Of a stretch of DNA of 64,000 nucleotides, positions 18,328 to 38,874 are shown piece by piece. The notes beneath the pieces are model-generated. The model was not told the DNA's origin. It was given only the letters and a program-made list of their open reading frames with translations, and ran no database searches. Numbering within the stretch: the stretch's first letter is position 1; every line of letters begins with the position of its first letter. Origin of the DNA: Roseococcus suduntuyensis (GTDB lineage: Bacteria; Pseudomonadota; Alphaproteobacteria; Acetobacterales; Acetobacteraceae). The position numbers and the translations under genes were made by a program. The DNA lies in contig NZ_JACIDJ010000003.1 in assembly GCF_014196305.1 (NCBI RefSeq), positions 248,001 through 312,000 of the forward strand, written 5' to 3'.

Positions 18328-18345
18328 TGTCAGTTTCGCGTGACA
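18328..18345 (+). promoter_or_regulatory. PpsR/CrtJ box upstream of crtE
   Basis: TGTCAGTTTCGCGTGACA matches the PpsR/CrtJ consensus TGT-N12-ACA exactly, with the full TGTCA...TGACA arms. It is 49 nt before the crtE start, between lpxB and crtE. Photosynthesis genes of purple bacteria are repressed by PpsR/CrtJ at such sites in the presence of oxygen or light. ppsR itself is not in this window. Confidence 0.8.
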
Positions 18346-27917: not shown

Positions 27918-27929
27918 CTTGTGGTGCCC

Positions 27930-28367
27930 ATGACAACCCTGCTTGCCCTTCTCAGCCTGTTCTTCGTGGCGCTGGGCGCCGCCTCGCTGCTGCCCATGGC
28001 CTCCGAGCCCGTGCTGATCGCGATGCTGCTGACGGCCGAAATCGACCCCTGGCTGCTGGTCGCGGTGGCGAGCCTCGGCAACACGCTCGGCTCCGTCATC
28101 AACTACGTGCTGGGGCGCCTGGTGGAGCGCTTCCGCCACCGCCCCTGGTTCCCCGCGAGCGAAGCCTCGCTGGATCGCGCGCAGGGCTGGTATCGCCGCT
28201 GGGGCCGCTGGTCGCTGCTGCTGAGCTGGGCGCCCATCATCGGCGACCCGCTGACGGTGGTGGCGGGCATCATGCGCGAACCGCTCTGGAGCTTCGTGCT
28301 GCTCGTCGCGATCGCCAAGACCGGGCGCTATGTCGCGCTCGCGCTCATCACGCTGGGTTTCGTCTGA
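27930..28367 (+). CDS. YqaA/DedA-like (SNARE-associated) small membrane protein
   Basis: 145 residues from ATG 27930 (GTG 27921 is an in-frame alternative, but falls just after the terminator). Three to four hydrophobic segments are visible, with the family's GNTLGSVINYVLGR and a later SWAPIIGDPLTVVAGIM stretch. Short YqaA-type DedA relatives are implicated in lipid or undecaprenyl-phosphate transport and membrane homeostasis; this specific role is unproven. It precedes crtI by 70 nt with no obvious promoter between, so the two may be cotranscribed. Confidence 0.8.
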   Translation: MTTLLALLSLFFVALGAASLLPMASEPVLIAMLLTAEIDPWLLVAVASLGNTLGSVINYVLGRLVERFRHRPWFPASEASLDRAQGWYRRWGRWSLLLSWAPIIGDPLTVVAGIMREPLWSFVLLVAIAKTGRYVALALITLGFV

Positions 28368-28437
28368 AACCCGCGCTTTCCCTTGGCCTGAGCGCGCGCG
28401 ATGCGCGATGATGGCGCACTCGCAGGAACACGCCACG

Positions 28438-29955
28438 ATGAACGTCATCTCCTCCCCGCCCCGCCCGCAGGCCGTCGTCATCGGCGCGGGGTTCGGCGGG
28501 CTCGCGGCCGCGGTGCGGCTGCTGGCGCGCGGCTTCCGCGTGACGCTGGTCGAGAAGCTCGATGCGCCGGGCGGCCGCGCCTACACCTTCCGCCAGGACG
28601 GGCATGTCTTCGACGCCGGCCCCACCATCATCACCGCACCCTACCTGCTGGAGGAGCTGTGGGCACTGCACGGCGAAAACATGTCGGATGTGGTGGACCT
28701 GCGCGCGATAGACCCCTTCTACGTGATCCGCTTCGACGACGGCACCGAGTTCCATGCCAGCGCCGACGTGGAGAAGATGCGCGCGGAGGTGGCGCGCCTC
28801 GCGCCTGAGGATGTGGACGGCTTCGACCGCCACATCGCCGCCAGCAAGGCCATCTACGACGTGGCCTTCGCGGAACTGGCCGACAAGCCCTTCCACCGCT
28901 TCACGACGATGCTGAAGGCCATTCCGGACATGGTGCGGCTGCAGGGCTATCGCTCGGTGTTCGGGCGCGTCTCGGCCAACTTCAAGAACCACAAGATGCG
29001 GGTGGCCTTCAGCTTCCATCCGCTGCTGATCGGCGGCAATCCGCTCAGCACAACGGCCTATTACTGCCTGATCGCGCATCTGGAGAAGCTGCACGGCGTC
29101 CACTACGCCATGGGCGGCACGGGGGCGATCGTGCAGGCGCTGGCGGACCTCATCACGCGCCATGGCGGCAGCTTGCGGATGAACAGCGAGGTGGCGGAGA
29201 TCACGACCGAGAACGGCGCCGTCAGCGGCGTGCGCCTCGCTTCCGGCGAGATGCTGGCCGCCGATGTCGTCGTCTCCAACGCCGACCCGGCCTGGACCTA
29301 CGGCAAGCTAATGGGCGCCACCAAGCGCCGGCGCTGGACCGATGCGAAGCTCTCCCGCGCCGCCTACTCCATGGGGCTCTTCGTCTGGTATTTCGGCACC
29401 GACCGCCGCTTCGACGACGTCTATCACCACACCATGGTGCTGGGCCCGCGTTATGAAGGGCTGCTGCGGGACATCTTCTCCCGCAAGAAACTGACCGAGG
29501 ATTTCTCGCTCTACCTGCACCGGCCCACGGCGAATGACCCGTCGCTCGCGCCGGAAGGCTGCGACAGCTTCTACGTGCTCTCCCCCGTGCCCAATCTCGG
29601 CAGCGGCACGGACTGGGCGCGCGAGGCGCAGGCCTATCGCGACCGCGTGCTGAAGCGGCTGGAGGAGACGGTGATGCCAGGCCTGGGCCGGCACATCACC
29701 ACCGAGCGCATCATGACGCCTCTCGACTTCCAGCACCGCCTCAACGCGCGCGATGGTGCCGCCTTCGCCATGGAGCCGCAGCTGTTCCAATCCGCCTGGT
29801 TCCGCCCGCACAATGTCAGCGAGGAGGCGCGCAACCTCTTCCTCGTGGGCGCCGGCACGCATCCGGGTGCCGGGGTTCCGGGCGTGGTGGCCTCGGCGCG
29901 CGTGCTCGACCAGGTGGTGCCGGACGCAGCCAGCTTTCAGCGCGCGCGCGTCTGA
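28438..29955 (+). CDS. crtI: Phytoene desaturase
   Basis: 505 residues, normal CrtI length. The FAD-binding VVIGAGFGGLAAAVRLLARG is at about residue 11, followed by the acidic ribose-binding residue in LVEKLDAPGGRAYTF. The C-terminal carotene-desaturase signature LFLVGAGTHPGAGVPGVV is present. It introduces double bonds into phytoene at the membrane, giving neurosporene or lycopene. The Met at 28438 was chosen for fit to family length; MMAHSQEHAT upstream is in frame but unneeded. No crtB follows, unlike the usual crtIB pair. Its end overlaps the convergent crtD paralogue by 19 nt. Confidence 0.93.
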   Translation: MNVISSPPRPQAVVIGAGFGGLAAAVRLLARGFRVTLVEKLDAPGGRAYTFRQDGHVFDAGPTIITAPYLLEELWALHGENMSDVVDLRAIDPFYVIRFDDGTEFHASADVEKMRAEVARLAPEDVDGFDRHIAASKAIYDVAFAELADKPFHRFTTMLKAIPDMVRLQGYRSVFGRVSANFKNHKMRVAFSFHPLLIGGNPLSTTAYYCLIAHLEKLHGVHYAMGGTGAIVQALADLITRHGGSLRMNSEVAEITTENGAVSGVRLASGEMLAADVVVSNADPAWTYGKLMGATKRRRWTDAKLSRAAYSMGLFVWYFGTDRRFDDVYHHTMVLGPRYEGLLRDIFSRKKLTEDFSLYLHRPTANDPSLAPEGCDSFYVLSPVPNLGSGTDWAREAQAYRDRVLKRLEETVMPGLGRHITTERIMTPLDFQHRLNARDGAAFAMEPQLFQSAWFRPHNVSEEARNLFLVGAGTHPGAGVPGVVASARVLDQVVPDAASFQRARV

Positions 29956-31430
29956 AGGCCGACACCCTGCACGGGCCGCGTTCGGCCGGCGCGGTCCTCG
30001 ATCACTCGCGCGGCAGCGAGCCGGCCTGACATCGCGGCCATTGGAATGCCCGGGCCTGGATGCACCGAGCCGCCCGCGAGATACAGGCCGGGCAACGGGC
30101 CGCGGGCACCGGGCCGCGCGAAGCTGCCCATCATGCCGTGATTGGCGCGGCCATACAGCGCGCCGCCTGTGCCGGGGAAGAGCGCGTGAAAGCCCTCGGG
30201 CGTGGTGGCGACCATGCCGTCGCGTTGCACATGCAGGCCGCATCGCTCCAGCAGCGCGAAGGCGCGCGCTTCCTCGGCCGTCGCGTCGAAGCGCGCCACA
30301 TCGCCATCGGGCGGCGCGTTGACCAGCACCAGCAGGCGTTCGGGCGCGCCGGGCGCGGGCGCCTCGCCCACCGCGCCGCGGTCTTGCGCGCAGATGTAGA
30401 CGGTGGGCGCTTCGGCCACGCGGCGGCGGTTGAACACGGCGTCGAACTCGGCGGCGTAGTCCTCGGCGAAGAAGACGTTGTGGTGCGCGAGGTCGAAGCC
30501 CGAGGTCGGCGCGTTCACGCACCAGGTGATGGCGGACAGCGAACGCTTGGCGCGCGGCGTGGCCACCCCGCCTGCACCCAGCGCGGGCAGCGCCGAGGCA
30601 TCGCCGTTGAACACCACGGCATCGGCGCGCAACTCCTCGCCGCCCGCCAGCCGCACGCCGGCCGCGCGCCCGGCCTCCACCAGCACGCGCTCCACCCGCG
30701 CGTTGAAACGGAACGTCGCCCCCTGCCCCTCGGCCAGCTTGTGCAGCGCCAGCGCCACGGCGCGCATGCCGCCCTTCACCTGCCAGACGCCATCCTGCTC
30801 CACATGCGCCACCAGCATCAGCGTGGCCGGCGCCAGGAAGGGTGAGGAGCCCACATAGGTCGCGTAGCGCGCGAAGAGCTGCCGCAGCCGCGCGTCGCGG
30901 AAATACACGCCCAGCGCCGAATGCAGCGTGCGCATCGGCATGGTCCGCCACAGCGCGCCGAGATCCCCCACGCGCCGCACCAGGTCCAGCATGGAGGGCC
31001 GCTCCGAGGCGATGAAGGGCCCGACCAGGGTGCGATGGATAGCGGCACTCCGCGCGCAGAAGTCGCGATAGCCCTGCGCGTCGGCGGGCGAGGCGAAGGC
31101 GGCGATGGCATCGGCCGAGCGCTCGATGTCCGCGAACAGGTCCAGACGCCCGCCCGCCCGCCAGGCGTGCCGCGCCAGCAGGTCCGAGGCCGCGATGGTG
31201 AGGTGGTCCTCCAGAAGCTGCCCGGCATCGGCGAACAGCCCCTCGAAGATCCAGCGCATGGTGAAGACGGTGGGCCCGGCATCCACGCCACGGCCGGCCA
31301 CCTCCACATGGCGCATCTTGCCGCCCGCGGTGGCGGCGGCCTCCAGCACCGTCACATCGCAGCCCTGGCGCGCCAGGTCGGCGGCGGCGGCGAGCCCGCC
31401 CATCCCTGCCCCCATGACGATGACGCGCAT
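29937..31430 (-). CDS. CrtD-like carotenoid 3,4-desaturase, first of two paralogues
   Basis: 497 residues of the CrtI/CrtD flavoprotein family: VIVMGAGMGGLAAAADLARQG at the N-terminus, GGKMRHVEVAGRGVDAGPTVFTMR, a central YATYVGSSPFLAPATLML, EQDGVWQVKGGM, and a C-terminal GLYLAGGSVHPGPGIPMA. These match the CrtD branch (DAGPTxxTMR, YVGxSPF) rather than CrtI. A clearly related gene lies at 36158-37621. CrtD makes the 3,4 double bond in hydroxylated or methoxylated carotenoids on the way to spirilloxanthin; two copies suggest division of labour between carotenoid ends or a changed substrate here. It follows the DUF2306-like gene by 48 nt. Confidence 0.82.
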   Translation of the reverse strand: MRVIVMGAGMGGLAAAADLARQGCDVTVLEAAATAGGKMRHVEVAGRGVDAGPTVFTMRWIFEGLFADAGQLLEDHLTIAASDLLARHAWRAGGRLDLFADIERSADAIAAFASPADAQGYRDFCARSAAIHRTLVGPFIASERPSMLDLVRRVGDLGALWRTMPMRTLHSALGVYFRDARLRQLFARYATYVGSSPFLAPATLMLVAHVEQDGVWQVKGGMRAVALALHKLAEGQGATFRFNARVERVLVEAGRAAGVRLAGGEELRADAVVFNGDASALPALGAGGVATPRAKRSLSAITWCVNAPTSGFDLAHHNVFFAEDYAAEFDAVFNRRRVAEAPTVYICAQDRGAVGEAPAPGAPERLLVLVNAPPDGDVARFDATAEEARAFALLERCGLHVQRDGMVATTPEGFHALFPGTGGALYGRANHGMMGSFARPGARGPLPGLYLAGGSVHPGPGIPMAAMSGRLAAARVIEDRAGRTRPVQGVGLQTRAR

Positions 31431-31478
31431 GGTCAGGGGAGCATCCAGCGCATCGTCATGCGACCATCCCGCGCGTAT

Positions 31479-32213
31479 TCACGCGACGGCCGCCGCCGCG
31501 CGCCGCGCCCTGAGGCCCAGGTCAATCTTGCGCCGGTGCCAGATGATCAGCCCCACGCCGATGGCCAAGGGCACCGCCCACATGGCCGGGTGAAGTGCCA
31601 GCCAGGGCAGCACCCGCACCGAACCGAAGGCGAAGAAGGCCGTGTAGACGCTGATCCCCGCGCCCACGAGACCCTTCAGGTGCTCTTTCAGCCAGTCCAT
31701 CTGGCCCGGGCGCGGGTTCAGGATGAAGTACATGTTCGTGCCGAAGGTGGCGAAGCCCACCAGCGCGATGCCCACCATCAGCGGCTGGCCGATCAGCCAG
31801 CCATCCAGCGCGCAGGCAAAGGCGGCGGCCAGCAGCAGCCATTGCAGTGCCATGTTGAGCGGCGTGCGGTTGGCCGCGTGGTCGCGCCGGTTCCAGACGC
31901 AGAGCCAGCCATACCAGACGAGGTTCACGGTCAGGATGGCGTTGTGCAGCATCATCCAGCCGAAGATGCCGCGGATGAACTCGGCGTCGAACATGCCGAC
32001 GAGGTGCGGGTGGGTGCCCATCGGGTCCAGCAGGGTCAGCACGCTCATCCCCACGGCGAAGAGGCCCGTGGCCAGCAGGCAGGCGTTGAACACCTTGCCC
32101 CAGGCCTTGTGCTTGGCGCCGCCCTTCTTGCCCGCGATCGGCACCCAGAAGGCGATGGCGCCGATGCTGCCGGTGACGATGTGCAGTGCCACCAGGGTGT
32201 GAAAGAGATCCAT
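31479..32213 (-). CDS. DUF2306-like integral membrane protein
   Basis: 244 residues with about six or seven hydrophobic helices and a short basic loop KKGGAKHKAWGKVF near residue 30, a pattern of DUF2306-type membrane proteins. Histidines in LHIVTG and MLHNAIL lie at helix edges and could bind haem or metal, which is speculation. It is first in a minus-strand pair with a crtD paralogue and diverges from cytochrome P450 across 66 nt, so all may be part of one regulated locus. No function can be assigned from sequence. Confidence 0.72.
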   Translation of the reverse strand: MDLFHTLVALHIVTGSIGAIAFWVPIAGKKGGAKHKAWGKVFNACLLATGLFAVGMSVLTLLDPMGTHPHLVGMFDAEFIRGIFGWMMLHNAILTVNLVWYGWLCVWNRRDHAANRTPLNMALQWLLLAAAFACALDGWLIGQPLMVGIALVGFATFGTNMYFILNPRPGQMDWLKEHLKGLVGAGISVYTAFFAFGSVRVLPWLALHPAMWAVPLAIGVGLIIWHRRKIDLGLRARRAAAAVA

Positions 32214-32239
32214 GCGCCTGGCCCCGTCCGTGTCGAAAC

Positions 32240-32257
32240 TGACAATGCCACTTGACA
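32240..32257. promoter_or_regulatory. Near-consensus PpsR/CrtJ box between DUF2306-like gene and P450
   Basis: TGACAATGCCACTTGACA differs by one base from TGTCA-N8-TGACA (TGA for TGT in the left arm). It is centred in the 66-nt divergent gap, with a further TGTC...GACA dyad just upstream (32231-32244) and a TTGACA hexamer at 32252-32257. If functional it would place both flanking operons in the photosynthesis regulon. Confidence 0.45.
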
Positions 32258-32279
32258 GTTTTACCTGTAAAGCGCGGCA

Positions 32280-33668
32280 ATGACCTCACCGATGAACAGC
32301 GTCTTCACCCCGCCCAAGCCCACCTCCTTCGCGGCGCTGGTGGCCCTGCTCCGCGTGGTGCTGCGCGGCGATGGCGACCTGCTCTGCCTGCTGCCGGCCT
32401 CGGCCTATCGCACCGAGATCGGGCATCTGGGCTGGTCCCGCCGGCAGACCGTGATCGTGAACCGCCCCGACCAGGTGCGCCGCGTGCTGTCCGACCCCGA
32501 GGGCATCTTTCCCAAGAGCGACCTGATGGTGGAGGCCCTGGACCCGCTGATCGGCGACAGCATCTTCGTCTCGTCAGGGCCCACCTGGAAGCGGCAGCGG
32601 CGGATGATTGACCCCTCGCTCAGCATGATGCGGGTGAACAACGCCTACCCCGCGATGGTCGCCGGCTGCGAGGCGGCGGAACATATGCTGGACCAGGCGG
32701 CCGCAGACGGCACGCGGCTGTCCCTGGACCTGACGATGAGCCACCTGACGGCCGACATCATCTGCCGCACCGTGTTCTCCACGAACCTGCAGCACCAGGC
32801 CGCGCATGACGTCTTCGAGGCCTTCACGCTCTTCGAGCGCAGCGTGGCGCAGGTGGAAATCAAGCGCCTCATCTTCGACCCGGCCTGGACGCGTGCGCCG
32901 CAAAAGCCCGAGGTGCTGGAGGCCTGCGCGACCATCCGCGCCCACCTGGCCGCCCTGATCGACACCCACACCGGCGAGGACGCCGCCCGCTTCGACGACA
33001 TCGCGACGGCCGTGCTGGGTGCCCGCGACCCCGACACCGACGCGCCCTTCACGCGGGAGGAGCTGATAGACCAGCTCGGCGTGCTGTTCCTGGCCGGCCA
33101 TGAGACCAGCGCCAGCGCGCTGACCTGGGTGTTCTACCTGTTGGCGACGCACCCGGCCCTGGTGGCGCGGCTGCGCGCCGAGGTGCGGGAGGTCTGCGGT
33201 GACGGCCCGGTGGAATTCGAACACACGAAGCGCCTGCCATTCGTGCGCAACGTGTTCCGCGAAACGCTCCGCCTCTATCCGCCCATCACCTTCCTGCCGC
33301 GAATCGCGCAGGAGGCGACGACCATCGGCGACCTCAAGGTGCGGCGCGGCGCGCTGGTCATGGTGGCGCCCTGGGTGCTGCACCGCCATGCGCGCTACTG
33401 GAAGCGCCCCCATGAATTCGACGCCGACCGCTTCAGCCCCGAGCGCGAGGGCGAGATCACGCCCGGCACCTACATCCCCTTCGGCCAGGGCCCGCGCGTC
33501 TGCGCGGGTGCGGCCTTCGCCACCACCGAGGCCGTGCTGCTCATCGCGCGCCTGTTCCGCCGCTTCGACGTCCACATCGAGGCGCCCGAGCGCGTGCGCC
33601 CCGCCGCGCGCCTCACCACCCGCCCCACCGAGCAGATCTTCTGCACCGTGAGCCGCGCCGGCGCATGA
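32280..33668 (+). CDS. Cytochrome P450
   Basis: 462 residues. The I-helix oxygen-binding motif is LFLAGHETSASAL, the ExxR motif is in FRETLRLYPPITFL, and the haem loop is FGQGPRVCAGAAF with the thiolate Cys408. The N-terminus has no membrane anchor, so it is a soluble bacterial-type P450 needing separate redox partners, none of which is nearby. It starts at ATG 32280 (ATG 32292 possible) and overlaps the ATP-grasp gene by 4 nt. Placement between carotenoid genes suggests an oxidation of a carotenoid or another isoprenoid or lipid, but the sequence alone does not show the substrate. Confidence 0.9.
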   Translation: MTSPMNSVFTPPKPTSFAALVALLRVVLRGDGDLLCLLPASAYRTEIGHLGWSRRQTVIVNRPDQVRRVLSDPEGIFPKSDLMVEALDPLIGDSIFVSSGPTWKRQRRMIDPSLSMMRVNNAYPAMVAGCEAAEHMLDQAAADGTRLSLDLTMSHLTADIICRTVFSTNLQHQAAHDVFEAFTLFERSVAQVEIKRLIFDPAWTRAPQKPEVLEACATIRAHLAALIDTHTGEDAARFDDIATAVLGARDPDTDAPFTREELIDQLGVLFLAGHETSASALTWVFYLLATHPALVARLRAEVREVCGDGPVEFEHTKRLPFVRNVFRETLRLYPPITFLPRIAQEATTIGDLKVRRGALVMVAPWVLHRHARYWKRPHEFDADRFSPEREGEITPGTYIPFGQGPRVCAGAAFATTEAVLLIARLFRRFDVHIEAPERVRPAARLTTRPTEQIFCTVSRAGA

Positions 33669-34795
33669 GCGCGCCCACGGTCCTGCTGACATTGGGGCGG
33701 CTGCCCAAGGGGCTGGACGTGGCGCGGTCCTTCGCGGCCGCGGGCTGCCGCGTGGTGGTGGCGGAACCGTTCTCGCGGCACCTGGTCGGCGCCTCGCGCG
33801 CAGTGGCGAAGTCGGTCGTGGTGCGTCCGCCCAGCGCGGGCAAGCGCGGCTATCTGGACGACCTGGCCCGCGTGGTGCGCGAGGAGGAGGTGGACTGGGT
33901 CATCCCCATCTCGGAGGAGACGATGCACGTCACCTTCCTGCGCGACCTGGTGCCTGGGAACGTCACCATCTTCACGCCGCCGCCCGAGGCGCTGCTGCCG
34001 CTCTATGACAAGCACGGCTTCACCCGGCTCTGCGCCGAATACGGCGTGCGCGCGCCGGAGACCTTCATGCTCGGCACGCCCGAGGCCACGGCGCTGGCGG
34101 CCGCGCACAAGGTGGTGGTGAAGCCCATCCATTCCTGCGCCGGACGCGGCGTGCGAATCCTGGAACCTGGCACCCCCCCGCCCGCCGACGACGTGCCCTG
34201 CGTGGTGCAGCGCTTCGTGGAGGGCCAGATCTTCTCCTCCTGCGCCATCGCGCGCGAGGGGCGGATCCTGGGCAACATCCTCTATCGCGGCGCGATGTTC
34301 GCGGGCTCCGTCGCCATCGTCTTCGAGCGCGTCGAAGACCCACGCCTCACCGACTGGATCACCCGCTTCGTCGCCGCCTCCGGCCACACCGGCTTCATCT
34401 CCTTCGACCTGATCCAGGATGCGGCGGGCGAGGTCTGGGGCATCGAGTGCAACCCGCGCACCACCTCGGGCATCCACTTCTTCGAGAATGCCAGCATCGC
34501 CCGCGCCGTGCTGGACGAGGCGCCCGCCACGCCGCGCGCGGAGCGGCGCTTGCAGCAATTCTACTCGGTGCTGACGGCGCTGTCGGGCGTGATGTTCCGG
34601 CGCGGCTATTTCGCGGTGCTGACGCAACTGCTCGGCACGCGCGATGTCACCTTCGACCGGCGTGACCCCGTGCCGGCGCTCACCATGATCTGGACCACCT
34701 GGCCCATCATCCGCCTCGCCATGGCGAAGAAGGTGCCCTTCGGCGAGGTGGCGACGCTGGATGTGGGCTGGTTCGAGGGGGAACGCGCCCCGTGA
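33665..34795 (+). CDS. ATP-grasp enzyme, carbamoyl-phosphate-synthase-L-like ligase
   Basis: 376 residues. An N-terminal Rossmann-like pre-ATP-grasp domain (LLTLGRLPKGLDVARSFAAAG) is followed by the ATP-grasp fold: VVVKPIHSCAGRGVRI binds ATP (about residue 140), and GFISFDLIQDAAG with WGIECNPRTTSGIHF carries the Mg-binding Glu and Asn (about residues 240-275). The last 90 residues contain an aromatic, hydrophobic segment (ALTMIWTTWPIIRLAM) that may touch the membrane. Such enzymes join a carboxylate to an amine or thiol through an acyl phosphate. Coupling to P450 suggests the P450 product or a partner acid is its substrate (inference). Confidence 0.83.
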   Translation: MSAPTVLLTLGRLPKGLDVARSFAAAGCRVVVAEPFSRHLVGASRAVAKSVVVRPPSAGKRGYLDDLARVVREEEVDWVIPISEETMHVTFLRDLVPGNVTIFTPPPEALLPLYDKHGFTRLCAEYGVRAPETFMLGTPEATALAAAHKVVVKPIHSCAGRGVRILEPGTPPPADDVPCVVQRFVEGQIFSSCAIAREGRILGNILYRGAMFAGSVAIVFERVEDPRLTDWITRFVAASGHTGFISFDLIQDAAGEVWGIECNPRTTSGIHFFENASIARAVLDEAPATPRAERRLQQFYSVLTALSGVMFRRGYFAVLTQLLGTRDVTFDRRDPVPALTMIWTTWPIIRLAMAKKVPFGEVATLDVGWFEGERAP

Positions 34796-35220
34796 GGCCG
34801 GCCCAGCCCGCGGACGCACCCGCCCTGACCGCGCTCTTCCTGGCCGCGCGCCGCGCCGCCATGCCCTGACTGCCGGAACTCCACACCGAGGCGCAGACGC
34901 TGCACTGGATGCAGGCGCTGGTGCTGCCGCGAAGCCGGGTGTGGGTGGCCGATGACGAGGCGGGCCTGCCCGCCGGCTTCGCCGCGCTGACGCCAGGGCG
35001 GCTCGATCATCTCTACGTCGCCCCCGGATCGCAGGGGCGCGGCCTCGGCGACGCGCTGTTGCGGGAGGTGAAGCTGGCCAGCCCGGATGGGCTGACGCTG
35101 CACGTCTTCCAGCGCAACGCGCCCGCGCGCCGTTTTTATGAGCGGCGAGGCTTCCGCCTCATCGCCCTGCGCGACGGCCAGGAGAATGAGGAGCGGGAGC
35201 CGGACGCGATCTACACCTAG
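34792..35220 (+). pseudogene. GNAT acetyltransferase gene interrupted by in-frame TGA
   Basis: A continuous GNAT reading frame runs from the GTG at 34792, which overlaps the ATP-grasp stop, to the TAG at 35220, but has a TGA at 34867-34869. The preceding codons read LFLAARRAAMP and the following ones LPELHTEAQTLHWM, where close GNAT proteins have a Trp (MPWLPELH), so TGG to TGA is the likely change. Downstream, LDHLYVAPGSQGRGLGDALL is the acetyl-CoA loop and FQRNAPARRFYERRGFR the C-terminal signature. A short product from ATG 34909 (103 aa) would lack the N-terminal part of the fold. It may be a recent nonsense mutation or a sequencing error. Confidence 0.8.
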
Positions 35221-35228
35221 CGGCCCGG

Positions 35229-36161
35229 CTAACCCAGCGTCCGCGGCACCTTCCACGGCAGCATCGCATACATGGCCGGGTTCTTGAACCGATCCAGTTC
35301 CAGGCTCTCATGCACCGCCGTCGTCTCCTGCCCCAGCAGCGTCGTGCGGATTTCCGAGCGCGAGTAGAAGGGCGTGTCCTCCAGCGTCCGCACCACCCGC
35401 GCCTGGCCGCTCTCGGAGCGCGTGGGCCTTCGGATGCGCCACAACGTGCGCGGCATGGTGGCCGGCGGCGGCACGGCGATGTCCACCACCGCGCCATCAT
35501 CCGTCGCCTTCAGCGCGAGCGACTGCTTCGAACCATCGCGCCGTTCGGCGTTGTAGAGAATGGCCGTCGCGTCCTGCATGGGCGCACGGCACCAGTCCCA
35601 CTCACGAAAGTCCTCTTCCAGCGGGGCGGCGCCGTGGTTGGTGTCGAAATAGGCGGGGCCGGACCAGCGCAAGCCGGGGCTGCTCAGTTCCACCTCCACG
35701 CGGGAGCGCGGCGCGATAGGCTGCCAGCGGTGCCGCCCATGCGTGTCCAGCGTGAATTCGCGGCTTCCCAGCGCGCGCGGCCGCACGCGCACCGTGCCCG
35801 TCAGCCGTGAGGGGATGGGCGCCGTCATCTCGTTGATGTGGATGGTCAGCGTCTCGCCATCCCAGTCGAGCCGCGAGGGGCCGATCTGCAAATAATCCGG
35901 CCCGCGCGACAGGGCGCCACGCCGGCGGTCCGTCATCGCCCAGCGGCGCGGGCTGCCATAGAGCGCCACGTTCAGGCAGCAGTGATTTTGCGGGTCGGCC
36001 GGGCCGCGCCGATGCGCCGCCGCATACCAGGGCGAGAACACCGTGCCGATGAAGGCGATGAGGGTGATGCCATGCGCCCCGTCATCGGACAGCGCGTCCA
36101 CATACCACCAGGCATAGCCGCGCTCGGGCACATGCCGGTCGAATTCCCAACCTCTCATCAT
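35229..36161 (-). CDS. crtC: Carotenoid 1,2-hydratase (hydroxyneurosporene synthase)
   Basis: 310 residues, CrtC lipocalin-like protein with Trp-rich strands: GYAWWYVDALSDDGAHGITLIAF near the N-terminus, FIGTVFSPWYAAA, CLNVALYG, and FREWDWCRAPM later. It adds water across the C1-C2 double bond of lycopene or neurosporene, the first step from acyclic carotenes toward spirilloxanthin. Its start overlaps the stop of the upstream crtD by 4 nt (36158-36161), the conserved crtD-crtC pairing. It converges on the broken GNAT gene with an 8-nt gap. Confidence 0.93.
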   Translation of the reverse strand: MMRGWEFDRHVPERGYAWWYVDALSDDGAHGITLIAFIGTVFSPWYAAAHRRGPADPQNHCCLNVALYGSPRRWAMTDRRRGALSRGPDYLQIGPSRLDWDGETLTIHINEMTAPIPSRLTGTVRVRPRALGSREFTLDTHGRHRWQPIAPRSRVEVELSSPGLRWSGPAYFDTNHGAAPLEEDFREWDWCRAPMQDATAILYNAERRDGSKQSLALKATDDGAVVDIAVPPPATMPRTLWRIRRPTRSESGQARVVRTLEDTPFYSRSEIRTTLLGQETTAVHESLELDRFKNPAMYAMLPWKVPRTLG

Positions 36162-37621
36162 CGCTCCTCAAGAATGGCCTCGGCGGCGAACCGCCCGGAA
36201 ATTGCCGCCATGGCGAGCCCCGCGCCAGGGTGGGTGCCCCCGCCCGCCAGGAACAGCCCGGGCAGGCGCGTGGCCGCGCGCGGGCGTTCGAAGGCGGCGT
36301 TCCACCCCTGCATCGCGGCCCCGTAGAGGGCGCCGCCCGTGCCGGGAAACAGCGCCTCGTAGCCCGCGGGGGTGGTCGCGTGGGTCTGCGTGATCTCCAG
36401 CGCGAAACCGGCCGCGGCGAGCTGCGCGAGGCGTGATTTCGTCAGCGCCGCCAGGTCCGGCACCGCGGAGGCGCCGCGCGCGGGGGCGGTGAGGTTGAGC
36501 TGGAAGCCCTCCTCGCCGTCTGGCACCGCGCCGTCATCGCCACGGTCCAGCGCGGTCAGGTGCAGGGTGGAGGCGGCGGGCAAGCGGGCGCGGAAATCCA
36601 GCGCGGCATATTCGCCGCCCGGCGCGGGAAAGACCACATTGGTGGGCAGCGCCGGGCGGCCCGTGATGCGCCCGCGCAAAAGCCAGGTGACGGCCGAGAA
36701 GGAACGCTGTCGCGGCGGGATGGCGTCCACCGCGCCCGCGGCCGCCGCGCCGAAAAGGCTCGCGCCGAGGGCCGCCACATCGGCGTTGATCACCACCGCA
36801 TCGGCCGCGACCTCCTCGCCATCCGCGAGGCGCAGGCCGGAGGCGCGGCCGCCGGCCACCAGCACCTCCGCCACGGGCGCGTCGCAGCGCAGCCGCACGC
36901 CCATGTCCTCCGCCACGCGCGCCAGCGCCGCCGCCATCCGATGCACGCCGCCGGCGACGCGCCAAACGCCCTCCTGCTCCACCGCCGCCACCATCATCAG
37001 CGTGGCCGGCGCGCGCAGCGGCGAGGCGCCGACATAGGTCGCGTAGCCGCCGAACAACTGCCGCAGCCGCGCGTCGCGGAAATGCTTGCCCAGCGCGTCG
37101 TCCAGCCGGGCGAAGGGCGAAAGGCCGAGCAGCCGCCCCATGCCGAGTTCCGCCGCCAGCCCCAGGGCGGTCGGGCGGGCGCGCTGCAGGAAGGCCGCGT
37201 CCAGCGCCGCGCGCGCATCGCGGGCGCGGGCCATGAAGTCGCGATAGCCGCGCGCCTCGGCGGCCCCCGCGAAGGCGCCGATGGCGTCGGCGTTGCGGGC
37301 CTCGTCGCGGTGCAGGTCGAGCGTGCTGCCATCGGGCCAGACATGGCGGCCGAGCGACTGTGCCTCGGCCAGGTCCAGATGCGCGTCGAGCGACGTGCCG
37401 CCCATGGCGAAGAGCGCCTCGAACACCGGGCGCAGCGTGAGCTGGGTGGGCCCGGCATCCATCGCGACACCGCCCAGTTCCACCGCGCGCAGCTTGCCGC
37501 CCGGCACCGCCGCTCGCTCAAAGACCGAAACGGCACAGCCACGCGCGGCGAGATGGATGGCCGCCGCCAGCCCCCCCACCCCGGCCCCCACGATGGCCAC
37601 GCGCCTGTCCCGCCCCGTCAT
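36158..37621 (-). CDS. crtD: Methoxyneurosporene / hydroxycarotenoid 3,4-desaturase
   Basis: 487 residues from ATG 37621 (MTGRDRRVAIVGAGVGGL). The FAD motif GAGVGGLAAAIHLAARG, VAMDAGPTQLTLR, GGYATYVGASPLRAPATLMM, EQEGVWRVAGGVHRM and the terminal LPGLFLAGGGTHPGAGLAMA define CrtD. Its pairing with crtC and divergence from crtF behind a PpsR box make it the canonical crtD; the copy at 29937-31430 shares the same motifs. Frame continues upstream of the chosen start, but through the operator region. It makes the C3-C4 double bond in the pathway to spirilloxanthin. Confidence 0.9.
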   Translation of the reverse strand: MTGRDRRVAIVGAGVGGLAAAIHLAARGCAVSVFERAAVPGGKLRAVELGGVAMDAGPTQLTLRPVFEALFAMGGTSLDAHLDLAEAQSLGRHVWPDGSTLDLHRDEARNADAIGAFAGAAEARGYRDFMARARDARAALDAAFLQRARPTALGLAAELGMGRLLGLSPFARLDDALGKHFRDARLRQLFGGYATYVGASPLRAPATLMMVAAVEQEGVWRVAGGVHRMAAALARVAEDMGVRLRCDAPVAEVLVAGGRASGLRLADGEEVAADAVVINADVAALGASLFGAAAAGAVDAIPPRQRSFSAVTWLLRGRITGRPALPTNVVFPAPGGEYAALDFRARLPAASTLHLTALDRGDDGAVPDGEEGFQLNLTAPARGASAVPDLAALTKSRLAQLAAAGFALEITQTHATTPAGYEALFPGTGGALYGAAMQGWNAAFERPRAATRLPGLFLAGGGTHPGAGLAMAAISGRFAAEAILEER

Positions 37622-37650
37622 GCCCCGAGTGACCCCTTCCCGGCCCTGAT

Positions 37651-37668
37651 TGTCAATCCATCCTGACA
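37651..37668. promoter_or_regulatory. PpsR/CrtJ box between crtD and crtF
   Basis: TGTCAATCCATCCTGACA fits TGT-N12-ACA exactly with TGTCA/TGACA arms. It lies 30 nt from the crtD start and 63 nt from the crtF start in the divergent gap, so one operator may control both crtDC and crtF. A further TGACA occurs 9 nt downstream (37676-37680) but with the wrong spacing for a second box. Confidence 0.8.
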
Positions 37669-37731
37669 ATGCTGGTGACAAGGCAATGCACTGAGCTATC
37701 CTCCCGGCATGAAGACCGCAGGAATTTTCGC

Positions 37732-38874
37732 ATGAGCGACCAGGTGGCCGAAGCCCCGCTTGCCCTTTCGCTGCGGGACCGCTTCCTCGCCTTCCGGGAC
37801 CGCATGGTGTCGAGCCCGCGCTTCCGGGCCTGGGCCGCGCGCTTCCCGCTGACGCGGCCATTGGCCCGCCGGCGCGCGCGGGCGCTGTTCGACCTGAATG
37901 CGGGCTTCGTCTATTCGCAGATCCTCACCGCCTGCGTGCGGCTGCGCGTGTTCGACGCGCTGCGTGAGGGGCCGCGTTCCATCGCATATCTCGCCGTGAA
38001 GCTCTCCCTCTCCACCGAGGCCACGCTCAGGCTGATGGAAGCCGCCGCCGCGTTGGACCTTGTCGAGGCGCGCGGCGGCGGTCGCTATGGCCTGGGCTCG
38101 CTGGGTGCCGCGCTGGTGGACAATGCCGGCGTGGTCGCGATGGTCGAGCACCACGCCATGCTCTACGCCGACCTGGCCGACCCCGTGGCGCTGCTGCGCA
38201 GCCCGCGCGGGGGCACGAAGCTCGCGGCCTATTGGGCCTATGCGGGCAATGACGGCGCGGCCTCGCTCGACCTCGGAGCGGTGGGCGAATACAGCGCCTT
38301 GATGGCGGCCTCCCAGCCCATGATCGCGGCCGAGATCCTGGGCGCCTATCCGCTGGCGCGCCACCGCTGCCTGATGGATGTCGGCGGCGGCGAGGGCGCC
38401 TTCCTCAGCGCCGCGGGCCACAGTGCGCCGAAGCTCAGCCTGATGCTGTTCGACCTGCCGGCCGTCGCCGAACGCGCGCGCGCGCGGCTGGCCGCCGAGG
38501 GCCTCGCCGACCGCGCCACCACCCATGGCGGCAGCTTCCACACCGACGCGCTGCCGGAGGGGGCCGACGTCATCTCGCTCGTGCGCGTCGTCCACGACCA
38601 TGACGATGACGCGGCGGCCGGCATCCTCGCCCGCGCGCATGCCGCGCTGCCGCAAGGCGGCACCCTGCTGCTGGCCGAGCCCATGTCCGGCACGCCCGGC
38701 GCCGAGCCCATCGGCGAGGCCTATTTCGGCTTTTATCTCCTGGCCATGGGGCGGGGACGGCCGCGCCGGATGGAAGAACTCCAGCACATGCTGGCGACGG
38801 CCGGGTTCAGCACCAGCCGCCCCGTCCGCACCCGCACGCCCATGCTGACCAGCCTGCTGGTGGCGACGAAATAG
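37732..38874 (+). CDS. crtF: Hydroxyneurosporene O-methyltransferase
   Basis: 380 residues. An N-terminal winged-helix dimerisation domain (SQILTACVRLRVFDALREG, STEATLRLMEAAAALDLVE) precedes a class I methyltransferase with the SAM loop LMDVGGGEGAFL (near residue 217) and MLFDLPAVAERA. CrtF methylates the C1 hydroxyl made by CrtC. The ATG at 37732 follows a PpsR box and a weak ribosome binding site; an upstream in-frame start would begin next to the operator. With crtE, crtI, crtC and crtD this completes the spirilloxanthin-type steps except phytoene synthase. Confidence 0.91.
   Translation: MSDQVAEAPLALSLRDRFLAFRDRMVSSPRFRAWAARFPLTRPLARRRARALFDLNAGFVYSQILTACVRLRVFDALREGPRSIAYLAVKLSLSTEATLRLMEAAAALDLVEARGGGRYGLGSLGAALVDNAGVVAMVEHHAMLYADLADPVALLRSPRGGTKLAAYWAYAGNDGAASLDLGAVGEYSALMAASQPMIAAEILGAYPLARHRCLMDVGGGEGAFLSAAGHSAPKLSLMLFDLPAVAERARARLAAEGLADRATTHGGSFHTDALPEGADVISLVRVVHDHDDDAAAGILARAHAALPQGGTLLLAEPMSGTPGAEPIGEAYFGFYLLAMGRGRPRRMEELQHMLATAGFSTSRPVRTRTPMLTSLLVATK

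Follow-up and report, generated by a model that had tools for sequence, protein, structure and literature searches.

The window analysed here, a stretch of 64,000 nucleotides of the Roseococcus suduntuyensis genome, contains a block of genes which, as the profile matches confirmed, is flanked by crtI on one side and by crtC and crtD on the other. The crtI gene, of the phytoene desaturase family (28432-29955, plus strand, start codon provisional; TIGR02734, 603.5 bits), neighbours crtD2, a CrtD paralogue (29937-31430, minus strand), which in turn adjoins the gene of a seven-helix membrane protein (31479-32213, minus strand). A control region of 66 nt (32214-32279) separates the latter from the divergent cytochrome P450 gene, encoding a putative carotenoid oxygenase (32280-33668, plus strand), whose end overlaps by 4 nt the gene of an ATP-grasp ligase (33665-34795, plus strand). 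After a broken GNAT frame (34792-35220, plus strand) follow, both on the minus strand, crtC for carotenoid 1,2-hydratase (35229-36161; NF045922, 321.2 bits, not reaching the cut-off of 400) and a crtD gene assigned by the tree to the crtC-linked group (36158-37861; true start probably nearer 37600). The overlap, the 66-nt gap and the CrtD beyond the membrane protein had been described in a sequence-only reading of this DNA, and all three stand. With 624.7 bits crtD2 passed the NCBIfam cut-off of 580 for CrtD, 1-hydroxycarotenoid 3,4-desaturase (NF045637), the crtC-linked crtD stayed below it with 517.4 bits, and in the tree the crtC- and P450-linked CrtDs formed a supported group (96/99) that did not include crtD2.

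The arrangement was compared with that of related loci. The membrane protein gene and the P450 gene were divergent in all 31 loci whose three genes were measured (L035, which starts with the ATP-grasp gene, and L039, which duplicates L031, not being included), and the P450 and ATP-grasp genes overlapped in 26 of them; these frequencies show that the gene arrangement is not due to chance. The control region carries TGACA-N8-TGTAAA at position 32253, with another TGACA before it. The general form of this motif, TGACA-N8-TGTMAA, occurs once in the window and was found in 27 of 32 divergent regions, but in none of 200 first-order random versions. It was absent from all 18 regions of a second order, that of a gammaproteobacterial MAG. 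The divergent promoter region is shared within the window's own lineage.

The P450 matched PF00067 far above the cut-off (244.1 vs 22.8 bits, E 3.5e-72) and has the haem cysteine loop, the ExxR motif and the I-helix acid-alcohol pair of the superfamily. The loop around Cys408 (PFGQGPRVCAG) had been recognized correctly: C408, together with A272, G273, E275, T276, E328 and R331, was identical in 62 of 62 aligned orthologues. The best PDB match was a plant carotenoid hydroxylase, LUTEIN DEFICIENT 5 (CYP97A3), but this match is not diagnostic, because an unrelated P450 of the bacterial family, used as control, matched the same entry (3e-43, second to 7wzl). No residue indicates a pocket for carotenoids.

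The membrane protein had been called a DUF2306 protein forming its own pair with CrtD, divergent from the P450. The gene and the pairing proved real, but the label is weak: PF10067 (DUF2306) scored 14.8 bits (cut-off 31.6, E 0.033), therefore we use only the name DUF2306-like. In the AlphaFold model (mean pLDDT 89) there are seven long helices, and H11, H68, H178 and K30 were identical in 55 of 55 rows, representing both orders. The protein was detected (E<=1e-20) in 32 of the 33 genomes of the family that have an orthologue of the P450 and in none of the 266 others; in the sole exception (G207) the P450 gene lies at a contig end.

For the ligase, assignment to the ATP-grasp superfamily is based on PF02655 (32.8 vs 23.2 bits, E 9e-8), on the fold match to PurK and 2pn1 and on the Asp, Glu and Asn residues of the superfamily. 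K116, K153, D248, E261, N263 and R265, of which we take D248, E261 and N263 to be the metal-binding residues, did not vary in any of the 55 rows compared, a short row having been left out. With the model (mean pLDDT 88.7) Foldseek returned 567 PDB matches at E<=0.001, the best of which included PurK, 2pn1, an L-amino-acid ligase and PylC. ATP-grasp enzymes with this fold act on many different substrates. The equivalog NF005315 (PRK06849) scored 229.4 bits against a cut-off of 406, so that the ligase is a relative and not a member of that family. NF005315 was the best NCBIfam match, below the cut-off, also for the relatives encoded in KASIII-SDR-MBL operons, which share 28-34% identity with the cassette enzyme over nearly the full length. 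These relatives adjoin KASIII, SDR, MBL-fold, AMP-ligase-like, Rieske or GNAT genes, whereas the cassette ligase adjoins crt genes.

The GNAT frame, which starts with GTG at 34792 and overlaps the ATP-grasp stop codon, had been counted as a further member of the system. It is interrupted by an in-frame TGA (34867-34869), and what stays open from a start codon amounts to 103 residues (34909-35220); in R. thiosulfatophilus RB-3 the frame at this position is open. Among 32 mapped ATP-grasp loci, a few of which stop just beyond the ATP-grasp gene, only one (L031) had a match. Being broken here and found in a single locus, the GNAT is placed outside the system. Taken as a whole, what the sequence-only reading had observed was confirmed in part.

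Orthologues of the P450 were found in 33 of 299 genomes of the family, 27 with 66-100% and six with 54-56% identity, the remaining family matches at E<=1e-60 having 40% identity or less. The 27 genomes with the closer P450s are the same 27 that have an ATP-grasp orthologue (51-100%). In all six genomes without ATP-grasp the P450 gene follows crtD and crtC, overlapping crtC in three (L113, L114, L116) and lying within about 210 nt of it in the others. The reaction centre (Photo_RC) was detected in 97 of the 299 genomes, in 30 of the 33 with the P450 and in 26 of the 27 with ATP-grasp (Fisher p 3e-13, kinship ignored); in the 27th, crtI, crtC and a CrtD gene adjoin the cassette. Had the pair occurred mainly in non-phototrophs devoid of crt genes, a role in carotenoid tailoring would have been contradicted; such a distribution was looked for among these genomes and not found. 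Since 67 of the 97 Photo_RC genomes have no orthologue of the P450, it is not needed for phototrophy. Of 16 cassette genomes searched for a crtC-like gene, 15 had one. Where tested (in the second order this applies to G302 only), the cassette is nearly restricted to genomes with photosynthesis genes, and its linkage to carotenoid metabolism is strong.

The expected confinement to the Acetobacteraceae did not hold. The cassette also occurs in Rhabdaerophilum, Hyphomicrobiales, Beijerinckiaceae and Sphingomonadales MAGs, and Photo_RC was detected in six of six tested cassette genomes from the search beyond the 299-genome set. In the second order, the P450 was found in 25 of 296 genomes. The 24 loci (without L037) showed several gene orders and contained ATP-grasp (23), DUF2306-like (22), CrtD (23) and crtI (21) genes, the single locus without ATP-grasp ending at a contig end. 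ATP-grasp was divergent from the P450 in seven and convergent in two of the 24, and crtB and ATP-grasp are co-directional neighbours in L037, L184-L187 and L189-L192. Although gene order differs in the rearranged loci, the carotenoid genes remain adjacent; in G299 (Rhabdaerophilum) and G300 the single CrtI-family match (E<=1e-60) adjoins the cassette. The window's cassette shares 80-89% identity with the Rhabdaerophilum-type loci L032-L034 and 59-70% with another genome of its own genus; these identities indicate that the cassette has moved between lineages.

The interpretation we favour, with a probability of roughly 0.7, is that the block serves phototrophic Proteobacteria as a module for carotenoid tailoring, its P450 oxidising an acyclic carotenoid (C40) of the CrtC/CrtD branch and its ATP-grasp enzyme conjugating the product. 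We infer the substrate and the position at which it is oxidised, as well as what the membrane protein does and what the ligase produces. The P450 and the DUF2306-like protein would form the core. The substrate of the former would be an acyclic C40 carotenoid that CrtI produces and CrtC and CrtD modify, and the latter, its near-obligate partner, could be an electron carrier or hold the substrate. The ligase, added in most lineages, would activate a carboxylate with ATP to form an amide or an ester; this carboxylate might be a carotenoid acid produced by the P450, or a small acid to be put on a P450-made hydroxyl. Because it is missing from 6 of the 33 P450 genomes, the ATP-grasp enzyme may have a different function. 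The original interpretation as a tailoring system is thus partly supported: P450, ATP-grasp, DUF2306-like protein and CrtD are tied to carotenoid genes and to phototrophs, but neither the GNAT nor the family restriction survived.

It is possible, though rather unlikely, that the P450 only hydroxylates the carotenoid and that the ligase attaches a small acid such as an amino acid to the new hydroxyl, without any carotenoic acid being formed. Ester formation by ATP-grasp enzymes is uncommon, however, and P450s can carry out alone the three steps leading to an acid. The L-amino-acid ligase and PylC among the Foldseek neighbours would fit such loading, and no aldehyde dehydrogenase was found among the selected cassette neighbours scanned. 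A precedent is CYP287A1 of Deinococcus radiodurans, a bacterial P450 described as a carotenoid 2-beta-hydroxylase acting in the last step (PMC11306087). It acts on a beta-ring end, and the available part of that paper mentions no ATP-grasp or DUF2306 partner.

Carotenoic acids of Roseococcus had been invoked in support of the sequence-only reading. Such acids are indeed reported, a C30 carotenedioate and its diglucosyl ester in R. thiosulfatophilus (PMC12654162), but the link to the cassette is weakened because the acids, as described in the part of that source available, are C30 and the genome has a separate C30-type locus. Contig C10 carries what is likely a C30-type carotenoid locus, made up of two CrtI-family genes, the genes of an acyltransferase and a family-2 glycosyltransferase, and a gene in which SQS_PSY matches in two stretches. 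The C30 diapocarotenoid ester pathway (HpnCD or CrtM, CrtN, CrtP, a glycosyltransferase and an acyltransferase) likewise yields oxidised, conjugated carotenoids, but with other enzymes, another locus and another chain length, and the cassette lies apart from the likely genes of the CrtN/CrtP/HpnCD type and is not restricted to genomes that have more than one CrtI-family match (E<=1e-60). That the P450 makes the C30 acid and the ligase activates it for the glucosyl esters, a proposal close to the original one, is improbable. Two extra CrtI-family genes, taken for the C30 pathway, were present in six of six ATP-grasp genomes of the family examined and missing from both examined genomes with the P450 but without ATP-grasp. 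Against this, the cassette genomes G299-G302 have one CrtI-family match each (E<=1e-60), no second full SQS_PSY gene was found in G301 or G302, and the cassette adjoins crtC, crtD or crtB, genes of the C40 route.

The module often forms part of a photosynthesis gene cluster, close to bch and puf genes, and could modify another product of the photosynthetic membrane (bacteriochlorophyll, quinone or hopanoid), its position among crt genes reflecting shared regulation only. This is very unlikely, as rearranged loci keep the module with crtI, crtD, crtC or crtB; L116 (crtD-crtC-P450-DUF2306-like) had no bch or puf query match in 19.6 kb, and in Rhabdaerophilum the module lies with crtI about 88 kb from pufLM. 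Chance travel of unrelated genes with the photosynthesis cluster, as the GNAT exemplifies and the transfer between lineages (see above) might suggest, is hardly credible in view of the nearly complete P450/DUF2306-like pairing, the invariant catalytic residues, the frequent P450/ATP-grasp overlap and the linkage kept in the second order.

In the mapped loci the cassette lies inside the spirilloxanthin branch (CrtI, CrtC, CrtD, CrtF) or adjoins its genes. To our knowledge, the P450, the DUF2306-like protein and the ATP-grasp ligase are not among the known enzymes of this branch, and full-text literature searches found no description of the cassette. The photosynthetic C40 carotenoid gemmatoxanthin of Gemmatimonas phototrophica is acyclic and bears a 16-oic acid, an aldehyde and a methoxy end (PMC8342508); the cassette P450 could lead to a product of this kind. 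For the terminal acid of gemmatoxanthin the authors only suggest CruH-like proteins as candidates, in contrast to the P450 of the cassette, and according to the part of that paper available no enzyme had been identified that oxidises acyclic photosynthetic carotenoids at the C-19 or C-20 methyl. The cassette, present in genomes of several orders, is a concrete candidate for the oxidations that lack an enzyme there.

We tentatively suggest, at slightly less than even odds, that the cassette represents a conserved ATP-dependent carotenoid conjugation, in which the P450 and a membrane partner of a new type would produce a spirilloxanthin-type carotenoid acid or alcohol and the ATP-grasp enzyme would join it to an amine, an amino acid or an alcohol. 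The resulting pigments would be a class that has yet to be isolated, spread by gene transfer among phototrophic Proteobacteria. We know of no earlier ATP-grasp enzyme in carotenoid synthesis, and this one would be the first. For the DUF2306-like protein, in which three histidines are invariant, a role would emerge as obligate membrane partner of a carotenoid P450, the first such partner in bacteria; its pairing with the P450 is tight enough for a direct test. If this is true, polar conjugated carotenoids are predicted in phototrophs whose crt genes suggest spirilloxanthin-type pigments only.

The window carries, in this order, crtE, bchC, bchX, bchY, bchZ, pufBA, pufL, pufM, pufC, a VTT-domain gene, crtI, crtD2, the DUF2306-like gene, the P450 gene, the ATP-grasp gene, crtC, crtD and crtF. 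The genes pufL and pufM were also found with the reaction-centre profile Photo_RC, and the labels pufB, pufA, pufC and crtF are those we presume from sequence and position. Between crtD2 (29937-31430) and crtC (35229-36161) the P450 gene (32280-33668) overlaps the ATP-grasp gene (33665-34795) by 4 nt, and 66 nt separate this pair from the divergent membrane-protein gene of DUF2306-like type (31479-32213); these three genes are referred to as the cassette. Further out lie crtD (36158-37861) and crtI (28432-29955), the latter directly preceded in many cassette loci, that of Rhabdaerophilum among them, by the gene of the VTT-domain membrane protein (27921-28367 in the window). A scan of 29900-35300 found no terminator and a single sigma-70-type promoter-like site, which is within the ATP-grasp gene. 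The sequence-only reading had counted a GNAT frame (34792-35220) as a further member of the system. This frame contains an in-frame stop in the window, is uninterrupted in the close relative Roseococcus thiosulfatophilus RB-3 (contig NZ_JAFFQY010000011.1; ATP-grasp protein 91% and crtI 96% identical to the window's) and had no match in the remaining mapped cassette loci. Being broken in the window and not kept across loci, it was rejected as a cassette member.

In the sample of 299 genomes of the organism's own family, Acetobacteraceae, thresholds were set at E<=1e-10 for ATP-grasp, E<=1e-60 for P450, E<=1e-20 for the DUF2306-like protein and at the profile cut-off for Photo_RC, which was present in 97 genomes. 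P450 matches occurred in 76 genomes, 33 of which had orthologues (27 at 66-100% and six at 54-56% identity), the remaining genomes having only matches at 40% or less. ATP-grasp matches were found in 31, comprising 27 orthologues (51-100%) and four distant proteins (31-37%), and the 27 orthologue genomes were exactly those with the closer P450. The DUF2306-like protein was present in 32 genomes, namely all those with a P450 orthologue except G207. Photo_RC accompanied the ATP-grasp orthologue in 26 of 27 and the P450 orthologue in 30 of 33 genomes (Fisher's test, p 3e-13 and 1.5e-13, respectively, for genomes that are related and so not independent). The genomes with the P450 but without a Photo_RC match were G120 (80% complete), which also has the ATP-grasp gene and whose locus contains crtI, crtC and a CrtD gene (L059), G294 (75% complete) and G207, which is rated complete, consists of about 510 contigs and has bchC, bchX, bchY and bchZ on the same contig as the P450. 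Three genomes of the window's genus in which Photo_RC is absent (G124, G216, G248) have no P450 orthologue and lack ATP-grasp and the DUF2306-like protein as well.

Seven further loci were found in RB-3, in Rhabdaerophilum and in MAGs of Hyphomicrobiales, Beijerinckiaceae, Rubritepida, Sphingomonadales and Gammaproteobacteria, and Photo_RC was present in all six of these genomes tested (all but RB-3). The order to which the gammaproteobacterial MAG belongs (locus L037; hereafter the second order) was represented by 296 genomes, of which 25, including the query genome itself, had the P450 at 60-100% identity. The 24 other loci contained ATP-grasp in 23, the DUF2306-like gene in 22, a CrtD gene in 23 and crtI in 21 cases, and bchX or pufM was seen in 11. 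Contig ends cut the stretches without ATP-grasp (L188), CrtD and crtI (L191), the DUF2306-like gene (L197) and the DUF2306-like gene plus crtI (L207); the missing crtI of L193 is not explained by a contig end. Among 385 genomes sampled across the class, the ATP-grasp profile had 11 matches at E<=1e-10, and only the window's own genome reached a cassette-level score (648 bits; next 185). None of 34 candidate stretches from viral contigs encoded a cassette relative. Plasmids yielded no cassette; ATP-grasp relatives occurred in three plasmid records at 32-34% and P450 relatives in 13, with 35-40% identity in the ten listed.

At least four gene orders occur. In order A the DUF2306-like gene is divergent from P450-ATP-grasp, a CrtD gene follows the DUF2306-like gene or is located close to crtC, and crtI, often with crtC or crtB, is nearby; it is found in the window, in all 31 measured loci and, in the second order, in 15 of 24 loci, of which L188 ends before ATP-grasp is reached. 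In order B (seven of 24 second-order loci: L197-L199, L201, L202, L205 and L207) the P450 is followed by CrtD on one strand, ATP-grasp is divergent from the P450, and the DUF2306-like gene is beyond crtI where the contig reaches that far. In order D (L195 and L196, two of the 24) ATP-grasp is convergent with the P450. Order C (L113-L118) reads crtD-crtC-P450, in genomes without an ATP-grasp match; here the DUF2306-like gene is convergent in L114 and L116, lies on other contigs in G103, G240 and G270, and was not found in G207. Order C sets a core of P450, DUF2306-like protein and CrtC/CrtD apart from an add-on, the ATP-grasp enzyme. Across all these rearrangements the P450 keeps company with carotenoid genes. 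The gene crtB adjoins ATP-grasp in eight of the 24 second-order loci, and in L037 it follows about 10 nt after it.

The accompanying CrtD can be of either of two kinds. In a tree of 63 CrtD and six CrtI proteins (rows below 85% of length omitted; the rows of L051 and L037 long and unsure), the 25 CrtDs adjoining crtC or the P450 formed one supported group (96/99). The 38 adjoining the DUF2306-like gene fell outside that group, and a single origin for them appeared in just 6% of bootstrap trees. Of the window's two CrtDs one falls inside this group and one outside, and both have counterparts in other genomes; the second CrtD is therefore an old paralogue rather than the result of a local duplication. 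In one genus the position next to crtC, held by crtD in other loci, is taken by a GMC oxidoreductase gene (L056 11053-12897, L058 13313-14950, L062 6163-8043); the L056 protein, when scanned, was choline dehydrogenase-like, below the cut-off.

Identity values differed along the cluster. The Rhabdaerophilum cassette with crtI (L032 5716-11134) resembles the window's far more closely than does the cassette of G278, a member of the window's own genus (L042): crtI 84 versus 70%, DUF2306-like 81 versus 68%, P450 87 versus 66% and ATP-grasp 80 versus 59%. Outside this block, G278 and the window share 91-92% in bchZ and pufL, 80% in crtE, 60% in crtF and 55% in crtC, and the crtC of Rhabdaerophilum is 48% identical to the window's. 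The simplest reading of these identities is that the cassette and crtI probably moved as one block between orders, separately from the remaining cluster.

The 66-nt divergent gap reads TGACA-ATGCCACT-TGACA-GTTTTACC-TGTAAAG. The motif TGACA-N8-TGTMAA was present in 27 of 32 regions between the DUF2306-like and P450 genes (the window's counted), occurred once in the whole window and did not appear in 200 first-order random versions; in the second order none of the 18 divergent regions, L037's among them, contains it. Its half-sites resemble those of TGTMA-N8-TKACA, which we take to be PpsR/CrtJ sites and which are found at 18328, 19297 and 37651 by crtE, bchC and crtF, but the arrangement differs. 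The looser pattern TGT-N12-ACA was dropped as a signal of the divergent region, since random versions reach the same counts (4 of 32 regions, random mean 0.74, highest of 300 versions 4; second order 3 of 18, mean 0.31, highest 3). In the whole window it occurs 10 times versus 4.07 expected, a number reached by three of 100 shuffles; the sites by crtE, bchC and crtF (18328, 19277, 19297, 37651) are presumably PpsR/CrtJ-like.

Residue conservation in the three proteins was counted across both orders, in every row exceeding 85% of the query length. The P450 retains its haem cysteine, ExxR pair and I-helix Glu-Thr in 62 of 62 rows. ATP-grasp has K116, K153, D248, E261, N263 and R265 in 55 of 55 (the short L063 dropped), and the DUF2306-like protein has H11, K30, H68 and H178 in 55 of 55 (the short L191 dropped), where H35 (54/55), K180 (50/55) and R200 (48/55) were less strict. 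Alignments A1-A3 used 28 of 38, 29 of 32 and 17 of 32 rows besides the window's, omitting near-duplicates and short and distant rows, and in A3 further rows as well. The DUF2306-like protein is predicted to have seven long helices, and a PDB search with its fold gave no match at E<=0.001. For ATP-grasp, the model (pLDDT 88.7) has matches that extend over most of the protein to ATP-grasp enzymes which activate carboxylates, including PurK, 2pn1, L-amino-acid ligase and PylC; among the 50 matches listed, TM-scores by query were about 0.54-0.62 and identities below 20%, so the model does not tell which substrate the enzyme uses. Distant relatives of the enzyme (28-34%) sit in KASIII-SDR-MBL operons, which suggests, by analogy, that its substrates may be hydrophobic acids. 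One such uncharacterised operon (L107, L108, L170, L171), comprising KASIII, SDR, MBL-fold, AMP-ligase/F390-synthetase-like and ATP-grasp genes and a Rieske oxygenase or GNAT gene, recurs among Proteobacteria and was also seen on a Paenibacillus plasmid. Similarity of the P450 to CYP97 as proof of a carotenoid substrate was dropped after comparison with a control P450.

The sequence-only reading had linked the cassette to the carotenoic acids of Roseococcus. According to a review, Rc. thiosulfatophilus makes a C30 carotenedioate and its diglucosyl ester (PMC12654162). A row of genes on another contig of the window's genome (L160 1294-8235, contig C10), encoding a protein with two SQS_PSY stretches, a family-2 glycosyltransferase, an acyltransferase and two CrtI-family proteins, would fit such a product and is the likely C30 ester locus; the genome's strongest SQS_PSY gene, on contig C2, was taken for the crtB of C40 carotenoids. 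Against a role of the cassette in C30 acids, Rhabdaerophilum and three MAG cassette genomes (G299-G302) each show a single CrtI-family match at E<=1e-60. The extra CrtI-family pair was, however, found in all six genomes tested that carry ATP-grasp and belong to the window's family, so inside this family the cassette may yet be linked to C30 pigments.

Most likely, the P450 would act on an acyclic C40 carotenoid and oxidise it, either following CrtC and CrtD or alongside them, with the DUF2306-like protein as its putative partner, and the ATP-grasp enzyme would join the oxidised product to something. That P450s do act on carotenoids is shown by the bacterial CYP287A1 (PMC11306087), and gemmatoxanthin, a C40 carotenoic acid for which its authors name no established enzyme, shows that such acids exist in phototrophs (PMC8342508). 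Full-text searches of a literature library that does not include subscription papers found no description of a P450/DUF2306-like/ATP-grasp carotenoid system. While the chemistry is a proposal, the three genes constitute a real, conserved and undescribed module, and its link to carotenoids is strong.
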